This document shows positions 34,996-43,225 of a stretch of 64,000 bases of DNA, in pieces. The stretch comes from Chitinophagales bacterium (GTDB lineage Bacteria; Bacteroidota; Bacteroidia; Chitinophagales; CAIOSU01): the NCBI GenBank assembly GCA_026003335.1, contig BPHB01000001.1, positions 828,591 to 892,590 of the forward strand, written 5' to 3'. Each line of letters begins with the position of its first letter. Position 1 is the stretch's first letter. Under the pieces are notes generated by a model that saw only the letters and a list, made by a program, of their open reading frames with translations, searched no databases and was not told the DNA's origin. The translations under genes were made by a program, and so were the position numbers.

Positions 34996-35977
34996 TTCCC
35001 TGCAACCTCAAAAAGTCATATACAAAGTAAGTCGCTATTAAATCTGCACCGGCTCTTCTGATTGCTGTGAGTATTTCCAACATAGCCTGCTGCTCATGCA
35101 ACCAGCCCTTTCCGGCAGCAGCCTTCACCATAGCATATTCACCCGACACCTGATAGGCGGCCACAGGTACCTTGACCGCCTGCCTTACCCTCCATATAAT
35201 ATCCAGATAAGCCAGAGCCGGCTTCACCATGACGATATCTGCACCTTCGGCAACATCATCGCAGGCTTCACGTATGGCCTCCCGTGCATTAGCGTAATCC
35301 ATCTGGTAGGATTTTTTATCTCCGAAAGCCGGAGCCGAATCCAGCGCATCGCGGAAGGGTCCATACAAGCCGGATGCGTATTTAACAGAGTAAGCCATAA
35401 TGCCCGTGTGCTGGTAACCATGGTGTTCCAGTATTTCCCTGATTTTGAGTATCCTGCCATCCATCATGTCGGAGGGAGCAACAAAATCAGCTCCCGCACG
35501 GGCATGCAGCAATGCCATTTTCGCCAACACTTGCAGGGTGGCATCATTGTCAATTTGCCGGCCTGTTACTATGCCGTCATGACCATATACCGAGTAGGGA
35601 TCCAGAGCCACGTCTGACATTACACAGAGTTCAGGAACAGCCCTCTTGATGGCACGTATAGCCCTTGGAAGAAGCCCCCTCGGATTGAGGGCTTCTTTGC
35701 CTGTGTTGTCTTTTTTGCCGACAGGTATTCGGGCAAACACCAATACTGCCCGAATGCCCTGGCTGAACAAAAAGTGGGCTTCCCTGACTGCACGGTCAAC
35801 CGAAAAACGATAATATCCGGGCAAGGAAGCAATAGGCTCTTTTTTGTTGTTGCCTTCCACAACAAAAAGCGGAGCTATCAGGTCGCTCACACTCAAATGC
35901 GTTTCGGCAACCATCTGGCGTATGGCTTCGGTTTTTCTAAGCCTCCTTCCACGGGACAAGGGAAACATATCAAACAA
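34976..35977 (-). CDS. hemB: porphobilinogen synthase HemB (Asp-rich metal-site type)
   Basis: A 333-residue enzyme condensing two 5-aminolevulinates to porphobilinogen. The two active-site lysines lie in YSVKYASGLYGPFR and VMVKPALAYLD. The metal loop reads DVALDPYSVYGHDG in place of the cysteine-rich zinc form, so it belongs to the zinc-independent, Mg-type variant. It overlaps hemD by 8 and hemL by 20 bases, consistent with translational coupling. Confidence 0.97.
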   Translation of the reverse strand: MFDMFPLSRGRRLRKTEAIRQMVAETHLSVSDLIAPLFVVEGNNKKEPIASLPGYYRFSVDRAVREAHFLFSQGIRAVLVFARIPVGKKDNTGKEALNPRGLLPRAIRAIKRAVPELCVMSDVALDPYSVYGHDGIVTGRQIDNDATLQVLAKMALLHARAGADFVAPSDMMDGRILKIREILEHHGYQHTGIMAYSVKYASGLYGPFRDALDSAPAFGDKKSYQMDYANAREAIREACDDVAEGADIVMVKPALAYLDIIWRVRQAVKVPVAAYQVSGEYAMVKAAAGKGWLHEQQAMLEILTAIRRAGADLIATYFVYDFLRLQGNENAAF

Positions 35978-36683
35978 GTTGTTGGGATGTAGTGGACCAG
36001 TATTCTGCTACTTTATCAAAAATGGATTCCATATCGGGCTGACGTGCAATCATAATAGGGGCTGACGTCCAGCGCATCACTTCCTCGGCCGTAGTTCTTC
36101 CGATGCAGAAACAAGGAAGAGTGTCGGTGCGATTTGCCTGAAAAAAACTCTTCACAGCGCTAGGACTCATAAACACAATGCCCTCTATACCGGCTAGCGG
36201 TATTTTGCGCAAAAGCTGAATGGTGGAATAGAGGATGAGCTCTTTGACGGCAACCTGATGTCTTTTAAGCCATTCGGGCAGATCTTCCAGATGATGTTCG
36301 GCACAGGGAAACAACAGGGTTTTGACCTCCGGATGGCTTAAAATAAGTTCAGCCAGTGCCACAGCATCGTTGATTTTGGGGACCAGGGGTTTTACTTCCA
36401 GCAAGTTCAGATGCCGTGCCGTTGAATCTCCAATGGCAAAAAACTTTACTTTGGGCACCCTTATTTTTTCTTCCCAGATAATTTCACTGAAAGCCTTTAC
36501 TGCATTCTGGCTGGTAAAGGCAATGGCATCGTATCGTGAATTGACGATTTCTTCAATCATCTCAGGGGTATGCGGAAGAAATTCTATCTTGATAACTGGG
36601 TCAACCACCAGGTCAATACCAAGCTGACGGGCATACCGGGCTGAAAAAGCATCTACTTCTCTTGTTACCAGAATCCTGGGCAT
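35970..36683 (-). CDS. hemD: uroporphyrinogen-III synthase HemD
   Basis: A 237-residue protein. Sequence conservation in this family is low, but the start (RILVTREVDAFS), AIAFTSQNAVKAF, FFAIGDSTARHL, and IVFMSPSAVKSFF with CFCIGRTTAEEV all fit HemD. Its position between hemC and hemB is decisive. It cyclises hydroxymethylbilane with D-ring inversion to give uroporphyrinogen III, the branch point for siroheme and heme. Two bases separate it from hemC. Confidence 0.92.
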   Translation of the reverse strand: MPRILVTREVDAFSARYARQLGIDLVVDPVIKIEFLPHTPEMIEEIVNSRYDAIAFTSQNAVKAFSEIIWEEKIRVPKVKFFAIGDSTARHLNLLEVKPLVPKINDAVALAELILSHPEVKTLLFPCAEHHLEDLPEWLKRHQVAVKELILYSTIQLLRKIPLAGIEGIVFMSPSAVKSFFQANRTDTLPCFCIGRTTAEEVMRWTSAPIMIARQPDMESIFDKVAEYWSTTSQQLV

Positions 36684-36685
36684 AT

Positions 36686-37597
36686 TTATTTCTGTTTTGA
36701 AAACAATAAAATCCTGTCAGCACCCTTGTTTTTAGCCATTGTTGCAGCCAGTAAACCGAGGTTGGGGGTTTGGGCTTTTTCCTGAAAAGTTATTTCCACC
36801 TTTTCTCTTCCGTCCGGTGATAATACTTCTCCTTTAAAAGTAATCAAACCCGCATCAAAGGAAGCCAAGGCACCAACAGGCGCTGTGCAACCGGCCGCCA
36901 AAGCCTGCAGAAACTGCCTTTCTGCATTTACAGCTATGCGTGAGGGTGCATGATCCATCTTTGACAGCAGCCTGACCACAGAGTGATTGTCCCTGCGTGC
37001 CACCACACCTATTGCCCCCTGAGCCGGAGCAGGAATCATCCAATGCAATACTTTATAGGGTGCCTGAGCACCAAGCCGGCTGAGCCCCGCCTGCGCCAAT
37101 ATGATTCCATCCCATGCACTTTGCTGCAATTTGATGAGGCGCGAATCTACATTTCCTCTCACCGGCAGTATGCGATGGGATGGAAAGCGGTATAGCCATT
37201 GGGCTTTCCTTCTGATGCTGCCTGTCGCCACCGTAGCCGTATAAGCAGACTCCAACGAAAACCCCCGTTTGCGAAAAACGATTACATCAAAAGGGCTGGC
37301 TCTTTGGGGAACTGCAGCTAATATCAGATCAGGATGCAACTCCACAGGCAAATCTTTCAGCGAATGCACTCCGGCATCAGCCTGCCCGTTCAGCACGGCA
37401 TCATCTATGGCTTTGGTAAAAATGCCTGTGTCCTGTGTATAGGCGACTCCAGCCTCCCGTATCATATCCCCTTTTGATTTAACCGGTATCACTTTTGATG
37501 TAATACCCAAAGCCGACAGTTGGTTGCACACCCAAGCAGTTTGTGTGAGGGCAAGGGGGCTCTCGCGCGTAGCTAAGCGCAATACCATGCTTTTCAT
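36686..37597 (-). CDS. hemC: hydroxymethylbilane synthase HemC
   Basis: A 303-residue porphobilinogen deaminase: LRLATRESPLALTQT at the start, VHSLKDLPVELHPDL (active-site Asp region), ATGSIRRKAQWL, RGNVDSRLIKL and FLQALAAGCTAPVGALA with the cofactor-bearing Cys. It polymerises four porphobilinogens. The start overlaps hemA by four bases (ATGA); a second ATG three codons later is possible. Confidence 0.96.
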   Translation of the reverse strand: MKSMVLRLATRESPLALTQTAWVCNQLSALGITSKVIPVKSKGDMIREAGVAYTQDTGIFTKAIDDAVLNGQADAGVHSLKDLPVELHPDLILAAVPQRASPFDVIVFRKRGFSLESAYTATVATGSIRRKAQWLYRFPSHRILPVRGNVDSRLIKLQQSAWDGIILAQAGLSRLGAQAPYKVLHWMIPAPAQGAIGVVARRDNHSVVRLLSKMDHAPSRIAVNAERQFLQALAAGCTAPVGALASFDAGLITFKGEVLSPDGREKVEITFQEKAQTPNLGLLAATMAKNKGADRILLFSKQK

Positions 37598-38751
37598 CCA
37601 GACACAAGATATGACGATTGCTTTACTTTCTGAAAATGGCGCAGGTGGTTAAAGGTAATCTTCTCCAGAAACCGGGAAGATACTTCCGGGGTGTCTTTGT
37701 CCAGATGATTGTCAAATATGGAGCTGTGCAACTCGGCCGTAATGGTCTGCGCTAGTTCATAGCGTTTTAGCCAATCCTGATATTCCCGGACTGTTTCGCT
37801 GATAATTCGTTGTGCGTGGCGGATATAACTCTGCTGTTCTTCAGCATGGCACAATCCAATTTGGTCAATATCAACAACAGTTGCCGGCAATCCGGGCTCC
37901 ACGTTGCGGGGGACAGATAAGTCAACAAAAGTCTTATTGTAAAGGGCTATGTTGCTGAGAGAGGCTGCGGTAAACAGCGGCTCGCAGGCTGCCGTAGCCA
38001 CCAGAATGATATCAGCTGCGCTGACGGCTTGCCGCAGTTGCGTATATTGCTGTGTGTGCAGGCCAAATTCAGCAGCCAGAGCCGCAGCCTTTTCTCTCCT
38101 GCGGTTTATCAGGGTAATGTTGCTCGCTGGCACTTCTTTCAGGAGGCTTTTCAAAGCTAGCCTTCCCATTTTACCGGTACCGACAAGGAGCACCCGGGAA
38201 TGCTTCTTCAGGATATGGTTGGTTTTTAAATAGCGGATTGCTGCATGCGACAGGGAATGTGCTCCGGTATTATAACCCGTTTCGCTGCGGATCTTTTTAC
38301 CGGCAGCGACAGCAGCTTCAATCAAGCGATTTAATTCAGGCCGAAGGCGCATTCCTGCGGCAAGGGCCTGTTTGCGGGCTTGCCTTATCTGACCGGTGAT
38401 CTGGGCATCTCCCGTAAGACGGGAATCCAGCCCGACAGCAACGTGAAACAGATGTTCAACCACTAACTCTCCCTGCAGGATATATCCGAAGTTGTAAAAG
38501 ACCTCAGGTTTATTACCGGTCATGTTGCATAACACCGATACCACCTCCCCGGGTATGGCTTCACCGGAATATATCTCCACGCGGTTACAGGTGACAAGTG
38601 GAAAAATAGAGCAGATACCTCTGGCACGAAACTCCCGGAGCAGAGACAGTACCTGTGCCTCAGACAAGTGGAATTTTTCACGCTCCTCCAATGGTGCGCT
38701 GCGATGGCTTATTCCCACAACAAAGAGGTGATTTATTTTGGCACTATACAT
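37594..38751 (-). CDS. hemA: glutamyl-tRNA reductase HemA
   Basis: A 385-residue enzyme reducing Glu-tRNA(Glu) to glutamate-1-semialdehyde, the committed step of C5 tetrapyrrole synthesis. Key features: VGISHRSAPLEEREKF, LVTCNRVEIYS with the catalytic Cys, GDAQITGQIRQA, a Rossmann motif VLLVGTGKMGRLAL, and the C-terminal dimerisation helix. Slightly short compared with ~415-420 typical lengths, at the C-terminus. One base separates it from cysH. Confidence 0.96.
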   Translation of the reverse strand: MYSAKINHLFVVGISHRSAPLEEREKFHLSEAQVLSLLREFRARGICSIFPLVTCNRVEIYSGEAIPGEVVSVLCNMTGNKPEVFYNFGYILQGELVVEHLFHVAVGLDSRLTGDAQITGQIRQARKQALAAGMRLRPELNRLIEAAVAAGKKIRSETGYNTGAHSLSHAAIRYLKTNHILKKHSRVLLVGTGKMGRLALKSLLKEVPASNITLINRRREKAAALAAEFGLHTQQYTQLRQAVSAADIILVATAACEPLFTAASLSNIALYNKTFVDLSVPRNVEPGLPATVVDIDQIGLCHAEEQQSYIRHAQRIISETVREYQDWLKRYELAQTITAELHSSIFDNHLDKDTPEVSSRFLEKITFNHLRHFQKVKQSSYLVSG

Positions 38752-38752
38752 T

Positions 38753-39445
38753 TCAGGCGCTGAGTTTTACATTACTTTTGGAGAATGGAGGCAAATGCAG
38801 ACCACACTCTGTTTTTGACTTTCCGGCCCACCGACCGGATCGGCCTGCGCCTTTCACTGTGCAGTGTACACACCCCACTGAGCCGTATCCCTGAGCCAGC
38901 AACGGATGCCGGGGTAAGTTATGGGTACGGATATAGCGTTCTACTTCCTGTTCGGATACATCAATAATGGGATTGAATTTCAACATGCCGTTAAATTCAA
39001 ATAGCTTCATACTTTTCCGGTGGCTGTTTTGAAAAGCCAGCAGCCCGGTGACCCAGACGTTATACTGCGGTTTGATTTTATTCAGGGGCTCTACCTTGTT
39101 AATCATGCAGCAGAAGTCGGGGTCTGTGTTCCAGGTAGCATTTCGTTGAGTAAAGTCATGATCCAACGGGTTGGGTTCTACGTCCACTACTTCAAGTTCC
39201 AGTAACCTGGCAAGATGGTTTTTATATTCCAGTGTTTCCTTAAATAAAAAGCGGGTGTTGATGAAATGAATTTTCTGACTTTTGTTTACGGTGCTTATCA
39301 AACTCAAAAGATACACGGAGGAGGTGCCAAACGAAGAAGTGACCAGCACTTTTTCTTTGCCGAAATCCTGATAGAACCGTTGCAGCCGCATCAGCGGAGT
39401 TAGGGGTTGATAGGTTGCATTGAGCTGGTCTAAACTGTACTTCAT
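38753..39445 (-). CDS. cysH: phosphoadenylyl/adenylyl-sulfate reductase (4Fe-4S type)
   Basis: A 230-residue PAPS-reductase-fold protein reducing activated sulfate to sulfite. It has VTSSFGTSSVYLLSLIS (nucleotide loop), FINTRFLFKETLEY, FCCMINKVEPLNK (Cys-Cys) and a later GCVHC plus TECGLH. The CC...CxxC cysteines are those of the iron-sulfur APS-reductase subgroup, so APS is the probable substrate. Placed directly behind the siroheme genes, it supplies sulfite to the sulfite reductase of the same operon. Four-base overlap with the preceding gene. Confidence 0.93.
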   Translation of the reverse strand: MKYSLDQLNATYQPLTPLMRLQRFYQDFGKEKVLVTSSFGTSSVYLLSLISTVNKSQKIHFINTRFLFKETLEYKNHLARLLELEVVDVEPNPLDHDFTQRNATWNTDPDFCCMINKVEPLNKIKPQYNVWVTGLLAFQNSHRKSMKLFEFNGMLKFNPIIDVSEQEVERYIRTHNLPRHPLLAQGYGSVGCVHCTVKGAGRSGRWAGKSKTECGLHLPPFSKSNVKLSA

Positions 39446-40044
39446 TCCTTTGAAATGAGGTTTAAGGTTAGTGCATTTAATATTTTTACCTTTTGAGAAA
39501 AGTCAACTTTCAGCCTGTCTCTGAGTGTGTGCAGGCTTTTGAGCAGTTGGGGTAATTCATCGGGAAGGCTTTCTTCCAGCAACTCCCGAAACCTTCTGGC
39601 AAAAGTGGGTGAGCGTCCATTGGTAGAAATGGCAATCTTCAAATCGCCCCGCGTAACGATAGACCCCAGATAGAAGTCGCACAGGTGAGGTGTGTCGGCC
39701 ACATTTGCCAGCACTTTTAGCTCTTTAGCCTGTTCCCGGATGGCGCGGTTCAGGGCAGGATTTTCCGTAGCAATAATCACTACATCTTTACCCTTGAGGT
39801 CATCGGGAGAAAACGCCCTCAGCAACAGGGTTACATTCGGATGGCTAGCTGCCAGGGTGGTAATTTCTTCTGAAACCTCAGGAGCCACAAGAGTAACACG
39901 GGCTGTAGGGCTGCTTTTCAGCAGAAACCGAAGCTTCTCACTGCCGGCATTCCCCCCGCCTACAATAAGCAACTGCAGCCTTTCGGGCTTGAGAAAGATG
40001 GGGAAAAGGTTATTCCGAGACTCCCGCTGCTGTGCGTTGCTCAT
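39442..40044 (-). CDS. precorrin-2 dehydrogenase / sirohydrochlorin ferrochelatase
   Basis: About 200 residues, equivalent to the N-terminal half of CysG and to Met8p. LFPIFLKPERLQLLIVGGGNAGSEK is the Rossmann NAD site, VVIIATENPALN follows, and NVADTPHLCDFYLGSIVTRGDLKIAISTNGRSP is the family core with the catalytic Asp. It oxidises precorrin-2 and inserts iron to finish siroheme. I chose the ATG at 40044, which overlaps the methyltransferase by 35 bases. An in-frame ATG at 40077 (211 residues) is possible. Confidence 0.92.
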   Translation of the reverse strand: MSNAQQRESRNNLFPIFLKPERLQLLIVGGGNAGSEKLRFLLKSSPTARVTLVAPEVSEEITTLAASHPNVTLLLRAFSPDDLKGKDVVIIATENPALNRAIREQAKELKVLANVADTPHLCDFYLGSIVTRGDLKIAISTNGRSPTFARRFRELLEESLPDELPQLLKSLHTLRDRLKVDFSQKVKILNALTLNLISKE

Positions 40045-40795
40045 AAGTAATCTGTTTTTCTGTGAATGAATTCGCATATTGAATCAGGGCTACCGTTTCT
40101 CCAATGACAATAATGGCTGGTGTAGTAATACGGGCAGCCTGCACTTCCTCAAATAGGGTTGCCACCGTTGCCTTGACCACCGCTGCATCAGGCAGAGATC
40201 CGTTGCAAATGACTGCTGCCGGAAGGTCAGCTTTGCCTGCCTTGATAAAAACTTCTGTAATTTCCTCTAGCCTGCCCAAACCCATCAGTATAACCACAGT
40301 AGCATCCGAGCGTGCCGCCTGATAGAGCGCATCTGGCAGCCATCCATCGGCTGAGGAAGCAGTTACAACCCAGAAGCTCTCACTGATTCCACGTGTTGTA
40401 AGCGGTATGCCGTGCAAAGCCGGAACAGCCGTAGCGCTGCTGATGCCCGGAATAATCTCTGTCGGAATGCCATGCTTTCGGGCAAACTCAACCTCCTCAT
40501 AGCCTCTGCCAAATACAAAAGGATCGCCACCTTTCAAACGCACAACTTTTCCGTATTGCAAAGCATAATCCACAATCTGTTGATTAATTTCCCTTTGGCT
40601 TTTTTCATGACTGCCAGCTCTTTTACCCACGAATATTTTCACAGCCTGGGGGGCATACTCCAGCAAGCGGGGATGAATCAGGGCATCATACAAGATAACA
40701 TCGGCAGTTTCCAGTGCCCGCACTCCTTTGAGGCTTATCAGCTCCGGATCACCCGGACCTGCGCCAACCAAAACCAATTGTGGTATATTCTTCAT
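40010..40795 (-). CDS. cobA: uroporphyrinogen-III C-methyltransferase (SUMT)
   Basis: A 261-residue SAM-dependent tetrapyrrole methylase that makes precorrin-2 from uroporphyrinogen III. LVGAGPGDPELISLKG at the N-terminus, VRLKGGDPFVFGRGYEE, PGISSATAVPALHGIPLTTRG and the C-terminal PAIIVIGETV are all classic. Four-base overlap with the upstream sulfite reductase. The methyltransferase and dehydrogenase are separate proteins here, unlike the fused CysG of enterobacteria. Confidence 0.96.
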   Translation of the reverse strand: MKNIPQLVLVGAGPGDPELISLKGVRALETADVILYDALIHPRLLEYAPQAVKIFVGKRAGSHEKSQREINQQIVDYALQYGKVVRLKGGDPFVFGRGYEEVEFARKHGIPTEIIPGISSATAVPALHGIPLTTRGISESFWVVTASSADGWLPDALYQAARSDATVVILMGLGRLEEITEVFIKAGKADLPAAVICNGSLPDAAVVKATVATLFEEVQAARITTPAIIVIGETVALIQYANSFTEKQITYEQRTAAGVSE

Positions 40796-42936
40796 GCTCT
40801 GTAATAATTAGCTATCACCTGTTTGTCAACCTGTTCTTTGTCAATGCCGAGCTGTGCCGCCCGGAAAGCTTTAACCTTTTCCAGAAAGGCTGCTGCATCA
40901 GCCAGATATTTTGATGCAAAGGCCGCATCCGGCTCGTGTTTATTAATCTGATAAACCAGTGTTTCAAAATCTTCGCTGCTGAACAATCCGGGTTTAACCA
41001 GTTTTTCATTAAAATCCTTAATGATGCCGGCCTGCGTGTTACACTGCACATCCTTACTCAGCAACAGAGCCTTGGCCCCAATGACAAACGTATTGTAGCT
41101 GTTGTAAATAGCATCAGCAAAAAGATTTTCCTGCAGGGCTTCTTTTGCAGCTTCAAATTTTTCAGCAGCCTCGCTGATAACGGTGGACACCACATCCAGC
41201 ATGATACCAGCACATTCGCCCACTCCGATAGCCTGTTCATAAGTTTCCACATGGCCCCAGTCAATGAAATCGTCAGCAGTAAGCTCTGTTTCAGCCAAGG
41301 GTTTCAGCAACTGGTAGAAGTAGGTCTTACCTTGCCGTCTGAAGTAGGCATTAAAATATTCCCCTTCACCAGCGTGAGCCTGAAAGTCATTCAGGAGCAG
41401 CCGTAATGCCTGCGGAATTCTGCGGGTTGGCAGCTTCACAATTTTTTCTCCTATAAAACCCGTACCATCAGGGTCAACACCTCCGCCCAGCACTACCTGC
41501 ATAGCCGGTGCAACCATTTCTCCTTTTTTTATTGAACTACCGTGAAAACCTATTTGTGCAGCCATATGCTGACCGCAGGAGTTCATGCACCCACTGATTT
41601 TTATTTTGATATCATGGTCATAAATGAGGTCATCATATTCCTCACGCAGCAGACGCTCCAGCACACGGGCAAGCTCCATGCTGTTGGTTACACCCAGGTT
41701 GCAGGTGTCTGTGCCGGGGCACGTGGTAATGTCATGCGTGGAGTCAAAACCCGGTTCTGCCAAACCCTCGCGATCCAGCTCGGCAAAGAGAGCAGGCAGG
41801 GCTTCCTTGCGCACATAGCGCAGCAGTAAGCCCTGATTAACTGTAACGCGGATATCGTCAGCTGCGTAGCGTTTTACAATGCCGGCAAGGGCCCTGGCTT
41901 TGTGATGGGAAATATCTCCGGTCTGAATTTTTAGATACACTCCATAGAAGCCTTTTTGCTTTTGCTCAAAAGTGTTTGTGCGCAGCCAGCGTTCATATTT
42001 GGATTGATCTTCTATTTCCATTGTAGGGAAGACAGGTTCGGGCAAAACAGGGGGCGGGACCACTGATTCATCAATGACATACTTTTTGTACCGCAAGGCA
42101 GGTTTTTCGGCTTCAACCAGTTGCATGAACTGAGACAAGCCAATTTTCTGAATTAAAAATTTAAACCGTGCCTTATGGCGTTTTACCCTCTCCCCATAGC
42201 GGTCAAATACGCGCAGGACGGCCTCGGCAAAAGGAATGATTTCATCGGCCGGCAGAAATTCGTAAGCTACCTGAGCAGCCATGGCCTGTGCACCAAGCCC
42301 GCCTCCGATAAGCACTTTAAATCCCTTAATCTCTTTATCCCCTTCTCTGCGGATGCGTGGAATAAATCCCAGGTCATGAAAGTAGGTAAATCCCGAGTCA
42401 TCATCAGCCGATGAGAAGGCTACTTTAAACTTTCTGCCCATATCCTGACAAACAGGATTTCTTAAGAAGTAACGGGCAAAAGCTTCCGCATAGGGGGTAA
42501 TGTCAAACAATTCTTTCGGGTCAATGCCGGCAATGGCTGAAGCTGTAACATTCCTGACGGTATTGCCGCAGGCTTCGCGTAAAGTGATGTGTTCTTCTTC
42601 CAGTTCGGCCCAGACCTTAGGGCTGTCATCCAATTTTACAAAGTGTAGCTGGATATCCTGGCGGGTAGTCAGATGCAGATTGCCGGTGGCATACTTTTCC
42701 GACACATCCGCTATCCTGATGAGCTGCCTTGCGGTCAAACGGCCATGCGGAATTTTAATCCTCACCATTTGTACACCCAGTTGCCGCTGACCGTACACTC
42801 CGCGTGTCAGGCGAAAATGCTTGAACTTATCTTCCGGAATTTCACCTGCCCGGAATCTGCGAATCTTATCTTCCAGTTCAAGAATATCCTTCTGCGCGGC
42901 AGGATCTATGTTTTTGGAGAGGTTTAAGGCACTCAT
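40792..42936 (-). CDS. siroheme sulfite/nitrite reductase with C-terminal helical extension
   Basis: About 714 residues. Two ferredoxin-like and siroheme half-domains (~20-540) carry the Fe4S4-siroheme cysteines in TCPGTDTCNLG and ISGCMNSCGQH, and HLTTRQDIQLHFV is the siroheme-binding arginine region. It reduces sulfite to sulfide with six electrons. Its operon partners (siroheme synthesis and APS reductase) favour sulfite over nitrite. Residues ~545-714 form a mainly helical extension (AEKFEAAKEALQENLFADA ... YNTFVIGAKALLL) that resembles the HEPN-like tail of many Bacteroidota homologs. A TTG at 42954 could extend the frame, but the ATG at 42936 fits better. First structural gene after the attenuator. 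Confidence 0.94.
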   Translation of the reverse strand: MSALNLSKNIDPAAQKDILELEDKIRRFRAGEIPEDKFKHFRLTRGVYGQRQLGVQMVRIKIPHGRLTARQLIRIADVSEKYATGNLHLTTRQDIQLHFVKLDDSPKVWAELEEEHITLREACGNTVRNVTASAIAGIDPKELFDITPYAEAFARYFLRNPVCQDMGRKFKVAFSSADDDSGFTYFHDLGFIPRIRREGDKEIKGFKVLIGGGLGAQAMAAQVAYEFLPADEIIPFAEAVLRVFDRYGERVKRHKARFKFLIQKIGLSQFMQLVEAEKPALRYKKYVIDESVVPPPVLPEPVFPTMEIEDQSKYERWLRTNTFEQKQKGFYGVYLKIQTGDISHHKARALAGIVKRYAADDIRVTVNQGLLLRYVRKEALPALFAELDREGLAEPGFDSTHDITTCPGTDTCNLGVTNSMELARVLERLLREEYDDLIYDHDIKIKISGCMNSCGQHMAAQIGFHGSSIKKGEMVAPAMQVVLGGGVDPDGTGFIGEKIVKLPTRRIPQALRLLLNDFQAHAGEGEYFNAYFRRQGKTYFYQLLKPLAETELTADDFIDWGHVETYEQAIGVGECAGIMLDVVSTVISEAAEKFEAAKEALQENLFADAIYNSYNTFVIGAKALLLSKDVQCNTQAGIIKDFNEKLVKPGLFSSEDFETLVYQINKHEPDAAFASKYLADAAAFLEKVKAFRAAQLGIDKEQVDKQVIANYYRA

Positions 42937-42954: not shown

Positions 42955-42992
42955 ATAAAAAAGGCCTTCAAGGTTTTTAACCGAGAAGGCCT
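42955..42992 (-). terminator. attenuator terminator before the sulfite reductase operon
   Basis: On the minus strand AGGCCTTC pairs perfectly with GAAGGCCT, with an inner GGTT/AACC stem, and is followed by TTTTTTATTT. It sits between the leader peptide stop and the sulfite reductase ATG (18 bases past the end of the T-tract region), so it can only serve to stop transcription before the operon. Confidence 0.9.
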
Positions 42993-43040
42993 GTGTTACT
43001 TATTTTTCTGAATTATAATCTCATGTAGCACACTTCCTTC
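42985..43040 (-). promoter_or_regulatory. antiterminator pairing that competes with the attenuator
   Basis: On the minus strand GAAGGaaGTGT (43030-43040) can pair with ACACaggCCTTC (42985-42996). This gives GAAGG/CCTTC and GTGT/ACAC helices around a small internal loop. The second strand includes the left arm of the terminator stem, so the two folds exclude each other. The first strand lies within the last codons of the leader peptide, 10 bases after its cysteine run. A ribosome stalled on cysteine codons would leave it free, whereas a ribosome reaching the stop would cover it. Confidence 0.7.
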
Positions 43041-43116
43041 CCGGGTCGCCTGCACAACAACAACAGCAGCAACAACAAACAGCCACCATAACGGGAAGAT
43101 GGACTTGTGCTTTCAT
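43021..43116 (-). CDS. polycysteine leader peptide (31 aa)
   Basis: A short frame, ATG at 43116 and TGA at 43023-43021. It encodes 31 residues beginning MKAQVHLPVMVAV, then eight consecutive cysteines (TGT TGT TGC TGC TGT TGT TGT TGT), then AGDPGRKCAT, with a ninth Cys near the end. It lies between a good promoter and the attenuator terminator, 84 bases before the sulfite reductase ATG. It is most likely translated as a sensor of charged Cys-tRNA rather than as a functional product. Cysteine-responsive leader peptides of this kind are known in mycobacteria; I know of no described case in Bacteroidota. Confidence 0.85.
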   Translation of the reverse strand: MKAQVHLPVMVAVCCCCCCCCAGDPGRKCAT

Positions 43117-43122
43117 AATGTG

Positions 43123-43153
43123 CAAATGTACATCATGGCAAAGAAAAAATCAA
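43123..43153 (-). promoter_or_regulatory. promoter of the cysteine leader and siroheme/sulfur operon
   Basis: On the minus strand TTG (43151-43153), 20 bases, then TACATTTG (43123-43130): an exact match to the Bacteroidota TTG-N19/20-TAnnTTTG consensus. Only six bases separate it from the leader ATG, so the transcript is probably leaderless or nearly so. Confidence 0.7.
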
Positions 43154-43225
43154 AAATTACTTACCTACGGTCGTATTCAGGCTGATTTTAGTAGCTTTAT
43201 GCCCCTTGCCAGATGCAAAGAACTC

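Follow-up and report, generated by a model that had tools for sequence, protein, structure and literature searches.

A poly-cysteine leader and candidate cysteine-responsive transcription attenuator upstream of a Chitinophagales sulfite reductase operon, with counterparts in other Bacteroidota

The Poly-Cys Leader of the sir Operon

The DNA considered here is a stretch of 64,000 nucleotides (nt) from a Chitinophagales bacterium (contig BPHB01000001.1, positions 828,591 to 892,590), hereafter the window, whose minus strand carries a sulfite reductase (sir) operon preceded by a short frame with eight consecutive cysteine (Cys) codons. This operon is very probably controlled by a cysteine-responsive, ribosome-mediated transcription attenuator. 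The frame, its Cys run and a terminator are present in the window, units of the same kind recur before cysteine-supply genes, and an alternative pairing is kept in relatives at a spacing suited to a ribosome; judged by such sequence tests, the element is a real, recurrent and cysteine-specific transcription attenuator. The attenuation logic had been proposed in an initial annotation of the window, and it is supported by the recurrence before sir and cysteine-synthase-like genes, the kept pairing and the ribosome spacing.

The elements that the annotation had read on the minus strand, a TTG-N20 promoter followed by a 31-codon frame with eight Cys codons, are confirmed (Table 1). The promoter is predicted by its likeness to what we take to be the Bacteroidota consensus, and the distance from TACATTTG to the leader ATG is 6 nt, so that the RNA probably has little or no untranslated leader. 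The frame encodes the peptide MKAQVHLPVMVAVCCCCCCCCAGDPGRKCAT. The 64-kb window has a single run of at least six TGY codons, and none of 60 order-2 Markov windows has one. A general promoter and terminator scan listed neither the window terminator nor the Bacteroidota promoter, which its rules do not cover. With Rfam 15, only a tRNA elsewhere in the window reaches the gathering score; the leader region has no match to a curated family, and the window matches under the gathering score are weak and unrelated.

The window folds as a four-segment attenuator. The whole leader is unusually stable (folding z = -3.10; one of 200 shuffles equally stable), and its minimum-energy structure combines a 1:2 hairpin, which joins the start of the frame to its end, with the terminator 3:4. 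This protector hairpin is an addition to the picture given in the annotation. In an RNA ending before the 3′ arm of the terminator, CCGGGAAGG..GTGTGCTAC (43044-43025) pairs with GTAACACAGGCCTTCTCGG (42999-42981) at -19.2 kcal/mol. The pairing of GAAGGaaGTGT with ACACaggCCTTC noted earlier is present, and the predicted pairing is longer than had been stated. The terminator stem-loop spans 42992-42962, with a T run extending to 42957 (minus strand). As the annotation had it, the terminator shares the antiterminator arm and is followed by the sir ATG, which lies at 42936 (minus strand); the stem outdoes every shuffle.

The start site, translation, stalling, termination and response to cysteine are parts of the mechanism that we infer from this architecture. 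RNA polymerase would start at about 43118, and a ribosome would begin translating the poly-Cys frame right at the 5′ end of the RNA or very close to it. With ample Cys-tRNA, the ribosome would reach the stop codon and cover segment 2; the terminator 3:4 would form, and transcription would end near 42957. With scarce Cys-tRNA, the ribosome would stall in the Cys run, and segment 2, lying past its leading edge, would pair with segment 3; this 2:3 pairing would block the terminator and the operon would be transcribed. If no ribosome were present, segment 1 would hold segment 2 and the terminator would form by default.

Table 1. Features of the leader and of the operon behind it, in window coordinates.
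Feature	Position	Strand	Detail and evidence
Bacteroidota-type promoter (predicted)	43123..43154	minus	TTTG at 43154-43151, 20-nt spacer, TACATTTG at 43130-43123; sequence and scan
Leader frame, 31 sense codons and stop	43021..43116	minus	ATG at 43116-43114, stop at 43023-43021; similar frames in relatives
Segment 1 (frame start), pairs with segment 2, protector	43091..43110	minus	duplex -15.7 kcal/mol, p = 0.010; in the minimum-energy fold
Eight consecutive Cys codons, TGT and TGC mixed	43054..43077	minus	sequence
Segment 2 (final codons of the leader frame), antiterminator partner of segment 3	43025..43044	minus	folding
Segment 3, contains the terminator 5′ arm	42981..42999	minus	folding
Intrinsic terminator (3:4) and T run	42957..42992	minus	-17.6 kcal/mol; 0 of 1000 shuffles as stable
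Sulfite/nitrite-reductase-family gene, taken as sir	40792..42936	minus	Pfam NIR_SIR; NCBIfam below cut-offs
Rest of the operon: tetrapyrrole methylase, siroheme synthase part, cysH, hemA, hemC, hemD	35970..40795	minus	Pfam

Recurrence Before sir and Other Cysteine-Supply Genes

The sir protein has a match at E 0.001 in 24 of 99 genomes (own genome included), and upstream DNA was examined for 18 strong sir places, the own genome excluded. At 13 of these 18 places in relatives, a frame with clustered Cys codons is accompanied by a terminator, and close relatives do carry the Cys-rich leader frame whose absence would, according to the initial annotation, have refuted its reading. Twelve of the 13 frames have at least three Cys in a row and one reads CCFC; the terminators score at least 18, here the mark of a strong terminator, at 12 of the places and 16.9 at the other. 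At L083 and L084, a Cys-run frame without a strong terminator lies before cysH, which itself precedes sir. No Cys-run leader is seen in the upstream stretch examined at three of the 18 places.

A set of named genomes, consisting of the best 80 of 586 sir loci (78 with upstream DNA), allows comparison with control sequence. Under a stricter rule, a short ATG frame that has four Cys among five successive codons lies no more than 600 nt upstream at 22 of the 78 named loci, and 18 of the 78 also have the terminator, vs. none of 1492 control stretches of the same loci. A looser rule (three Cys in four codons, terminator score of at least 18, all available upstream DNA) finds units at 20 of the 78. 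The carriers are Saprospiraceae (Saprospirales), Flexithrix (Cytophagales), Pedobacter (Sphingobacteriales), Fulvivirga, Marinoscillum, Cesiribacter and further Bacteroidetes. Several candidates were seen by eye only and remain uncounted: those with a GTG start (L210, L211) or an unclear start (L091), and those with sparse Cys (L094 near sir, L111, L123, L216). Among the matches listed, many poly-Cys matches in the relatives' examined loci were dropped as coding or low-complexity repeats.

If the terminator rule is dropped, a short ATG frame with at least four Cys in a row is found in the available upstream DNA of 24 of the 78 named loci and nowhere in 876,817 nt of control sequence. These counts bear on whether the TGY run might be a chance simple repeat, or an untranslated RNA or DNA binding site. 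TGT repeats do occur elsewhere, one example being a low-complexity stretch of the own genome (L005-L008). Such an origin is extremely improbable given that the genes behind the frames serve cysteine supply and that TGT and TGC are mixed in 50 of the 54 units with at least four Cys in the twelve codons from the start of the run. Furthermore, later TGY triplets are biased toward the reading frame (73 of 129 in frame after the first run vs. 11 of 43 before it). The in-frame ATG belongs to the detection rule and adds nothing against a repeat.

Attenuator-like units are not confined to sir. A cysteine-synthase-like protein with a PALP domain, whose best NCBIfam models (cysM and cysKM) both stay below cut-off, is found at 23 places in 22 of the 99 genomes, and a poly-Cys frame with terminator lies no more than 700 nt upstream of its gene at 13 of the 23. 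At L087, a poly-Cys leader with terminator is followed by an unassigned frame and a ThiF-rhodanese gene, and at L031 such a leader precedes a gene without a Pfam match. At L030, the frame MFFLSHTCCCCCCC plus stop ends 60 nt before the cysteinyl-tRNA synthetase gene (cysS), with no strong terminator. In three more relatives, G002, G003 and G006, the leader is followed by a peroxiredoxin gene and then by the synthase gene (the peroxiredoxin was checked in G006 only).

A peroxiredoxin gene behind the leader in three relatives, and the general capacity of poly-Cys peptides to bind metals, would suit a Cys-rich microprotein that acts itself, for example as a metal or redox sensor, its position before the operon being secondary. 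This is very unlikely, as the leader peptides vary from 16 to 45 residues over 61 units and by eye have no pattern in common beyond the Cys run, and as the RNA folds are anchored at the end of the frame.

A four-Cys pattern matches 73 times in the own genome, and no leader of this kind with a strong terminator turned up apart from the one at sir. Seven further short frames that start with ATG and hold four successive Cys codons were set aside; their terminators score at most 11.6 or are absent. By eye, no leader lies upstream of the own cysS or of the best own cysteine-synthase-like gene.

Conserved Pairing and Ribosome Spacing

The annotation had suggested covariation as a check on the folds. 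Because the leaders cannot be aligned, covariation was not counted in an alignment and every locus served as its own reference: the segment behind the Cys run was folded with the terminator 5′ arm and loop, and compared with 300 dinucleotide shuffles of the segment. The first set holds 45 units, with the window added by hand and one overlapping L021 frame and exact duplicates dropped; L076, with a terminator score of 20.0, lies outside it. A second set holds 16 fresh units, 14 before cysteine-synthase-like genes and two before sir. In this alignment-free form, the antiterminator fold beats the shuffles (p < 0.05) in 30 of the 45 units and in 12 of the 16. When segments are swapped between loci, the own pairing ranks in the best tenth for 19 of 45 units. 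Pooled p-values are not leaned on because the units are related. These results suggest that the pairing of segments 2 and 3 is kept while its letters change.

The geometry was measured wherever five or more terminator-arm bases are paired, which is the case in 59 of 61 units. Segment 2 starts a median of 13 nt past the last Cys codon (interquartile range 11-16.5) and a median of 11 nt before the stop codon. A ribosome is described as covering about 12 nt downstream of the translated codon (PMC4833913). Segment 2 lies just beyond a stalled ribosome, and the spacing is what attenuation needs. Furthermore, segment 2 overlaps a ribosome placed at the stop codon in 53 of the 59 units, and in all 61 units the terminator forms in the RNA that such a ribosome leaves free. 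An exact TAnnTTTG no more than 6 nt from the ATG is the best-scoring promoter-like element in the window and in five other units (6 of 61). If the usual distance from promoter to start site holds, these six would be leaderless or nearly so, and in this they would resemble the mycobacterial polycysteine frames.

Tandem Units

Two units both pass the rules at twelve loci, nine before sir and three before cysteine-synthase-like genes, and L068 and L069 are tandem with one terminator slightly under the cut-off. Between the first hairpin and the second ATG lie 10 to 86 nt. At several tandem loci the second frame begins directly behind the first T run and is therefore most likely translated from read-through RNA; at L109, a promoter-like element lies before the second frame. 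Paired units are more alike than shuffled letters in 12 of 12 tandem loci, which suggests duplication, although shared composition and function may also account for the likeness. Two attenuators on one transcript would form an AND gate that needs two stalled ribosomes.

Evidence Weighing Against Attenuation

Several results speak against transcription attenuation or limit its reach. Taken alone, the window antiterminator is borderline by folding (p = 0.043 and 0.071 in two tests) and not significant by duplex score (0.25 and 0.59 in two tests), and the window terminator scores 16.5 in the scan, under the cut-off of 18 applied elsewhere, because its loop is long. Among the units, p < 0.05 for the antiterminator is missed by 15 of 45 and 4 of 16, and a duplex-only test is passed by just 18 of 45. 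The 1:2 protector pairing reaches p < 0.05 in only 11 of 59 units and is therefore clear only in the window and some others. Cysteine is also not the sole residue to give such frames upstream of sir. Under the stricter rule, leucine frames occur at 9 of the 78 named loci (three with terminator) and valine frames at 4 (two with terminator), which we take to be partly other reading frames of the same repeats. For other residues the frames, and those with terminator, number 2 and 0 for phenylalanine, 2 and 0 for alanine, 1 and 1 for tyrosine, 1 and 0 for lysine, and 1 and 0 for arginine; the remaining twelve amino acids have no such frame at these loci.

Distribution and terminators also count on this side. 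In a sample of the phylum, 59 of 395 genomes match sir at E 1e-100; these matches comprise 47 newly examined loci, six weaker ones that were not examined, the own genome and five already counted. A leader is found at only 2 of the 47. Therefore, on present sequence sampling, such leaders are common among genomes close to that of the window and patchy farther away. Finally, ten named loci (L093, L094, L096, L100, L110, L115, L116, L117, L119 and L165) have poly-Cys frames without a strong terminator.

These ten loci, together with L083 and L084 before cysH and L030 before cysS, would fit translational control, in which stalling in the Cys run alters access to the sir start and the hairpin is incidental or ends stray transcripts. 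The mycobacterial precedent is likewise described as translational in the texts of PMC9031893 and PMC13236596. Translational control is nonetheless an unlikely account of the window, since the alternative pairing uses the terminator's own 5′ arm and not the sir start, and the stem has a T run behind it in the window and in all 61 units (a T run is required by the detection rule, the window having been included by hand).

A Second Design With a SAM Riboswitch

At the ten loci without a strong terminator nearby, at most one residue follows the last Cys. Rfam places an S-adenosylmethionine (SAM) riboswitch (RF00162) in all ten; the distance from the aptamer to the poly-Cys ATG is 6-10 nt in nine loci and 8 nt in L094, which has a longer frame. 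The next gene is sir in five loci and ferredoxin-like in five (names by eye). L110, L115, L116 and L117 additionally carry a terminator-type unit nearer to sir. As these leaders lack a terminator, poly-Cys leaders do not all work alike, and the natural guess is a single leader that would read both SAM and Cys-tRNA.

Among 20 other loci scanned, a SAM riboswitch is found only in L106, with no Cys run behind it. A Cys-run frame lies behind the riboswitch in 3 of 60 further riboswitch loci (L321, L352, L360) and in 3 of 18 hand-picked further stretches (L367, L371, L385); in some of these six the ATG is farther from the aptamer than 6-10 nt, and in L321 the riboswitch has its own terminator, with the Cys frame behind it. 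Over the ten named loci and these six, the Cys run for the most part reaches to the stop codon of its frame. The SAM riboswitch of the own genome (L349) has, by eye, no Cys run behind it. Judged from these loci, the pairing of SAM riboswitch and poly-Cys frame is a trait of some genes and lineages.

The Operon and Other Upstream Motifs

Pfam agrees with the annotated sulfite reductase, siroheme and heme operon: it assigns a NIR_SIR reductase, a tetrapyrrole methylase, part of a siroheme synthase, a phosphoadenylyl-sulfate (PAPS) reductase domain, GlutR/hemA, hemC and hemD. The cysH gene is also over the cut-off for NCBIfam PRK02090. The best NCBIfam models for the reductase (NirA family, ferredoxin-nitrite reductase) stay far below cut-off and do not settle sulfite vs. 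nitrite; it is named a sulfite reductase because siroheme and phosphoadenylyl-sulfate reductase genes adjoin it. With its reductase, siroheme and cysH genes, the operon supplies the amino acid that matches the leader codons, and it contains heme genes besides. The C-terminal extension of the reductase (residues 586-661) has a marginal HEPN match (23.7 bits, cut-off 22).

Other motifs were seen upstream of sir. A palindrome like CTACTAAATTRGTAG occurs at 4 of the 78 named loci, exactly in L088 and with three mismatches in L090, L095 and L159, and by eye also at L078 and L168. Only one of the four has a Cys leader, and the palindrome is perhaps the site of a DNA-binding regulator used instead of one. 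CTATAGA lies 15-36 nt before sir at L108, L120, L124, L131, L138 and L145, and within 350 nt upstream at 8 of the 78 loci (two in or near Cys leaders) vs. 7 of 1201 control stretches. TCATATGATCR with similar surroundings is found at two of the 78 (L154 and L163), and by eye at L079.

Broader Meaning

The chances are about even that several Bacteroidota lineages run a cysteine regulon by poly-Cys leaders of two designs, one an attenuator that often forms a serial AND gate and the other a leader reading SAM and Cys-tRNA, and that the heme precursor genes of the window are also under cysteine control. If so, a large environmental phylum would gain a simple tRNA-sensing control of sulfur assimilation, and poly-Cys frames would serve as a marker for cysteine-supply genes. 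Tandem units would let the contribution of serial attenuators be studied in a natural setting, the riboswitch arrangement would be a directly testable two-input leader, and in the window operon the synthesis of heme precursors would be tied to the supply of cysteine.

Comparison With Known Systems

The initial annotation knew cysteine leader peptides from mycobacteria and none from Bacteroidota, and the literature searched, which did not extend to the primary mycobacterial paper or to supplementary tables, agrees in describing no cysteine attenuator in Bacteroidota. The polycysteine leaderless short open reading frames (ORFs) of mycobacteria (Canestrari et al., 2020, as cited in PMC9031893, PMC9094748 and PMC13236596) are presented in the citing texts as a cysteine-responsive attenuator that acts on translation (PMC9031893; PMC13236596). 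Like them, the window has a short frame with a Cys run before cysteine-supply genes; by prediction, this frame would also start at or near the 5′ end. Unlike these ORFs, the window frame is accompanied by a terminator and an antiterminator, while the text of PMC1262725 describes mycobacterial Cys leaders as lacking conserved terminator hairpins. Control without an intrinsic terminator, a mycobacterial trait in these accounts, does not apply to the window and would concern only the loci of the second design.

A further parallel is the uORFC-8-2 motif of Rhodobacterales upstream of cysS, for which ribosome-mediated transcription attenuation by cysteine through an intrinsic terminator has likewise been proposed (PMC8632094). 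As described there, the motif has two tandem Cys codons (near positions 14-15) inside a stem and is found only before cysS in one alphaproteobacterial order. Set against that description, the window has eight Cys codons before sir in Bacteroidota, and the Bacteroidota leaders in general have long Cys runs before sir and cysteine-synthase-like genes, often in tandem.

Within Bacteroidota, the main text on Flavobacterium psychrophilum reports strong clues for leader-peptide attenuation before amino acid operons that it does not specify, and names neither cysteine nor sulfite reductase (PMC9723704). The Bacteroid-trp motif (RF01692) is a candidate for cis-regulation of an amino acid operon in the same phylum, and its entry also names neither (PMC2864571). 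In Bacteroides thetaiotaomicron, short frames in long 5′ untranslated regions are described as reminiscent of attenuation leader peptides (PMC7366714).

In trp-type proteobacterial attenuators, segments pair as 1:2, 2:3 and 3:4, with the regulatory codons between segments 1 and 2, and the Bacteroid-trp motif includes a Trp leader. The four-segment layout of the window is like that of the trp type; the amino acid and the phylum differ, and the protector is strong in the window while being significant in a minority of units. Ultimately, four features of the attenuator class are seen at the window: a frame rich in Cys codons and predicted to be translated, an intrinsic terminator, an alternative antiterminator (borderline in the window alone) and a matching operon.
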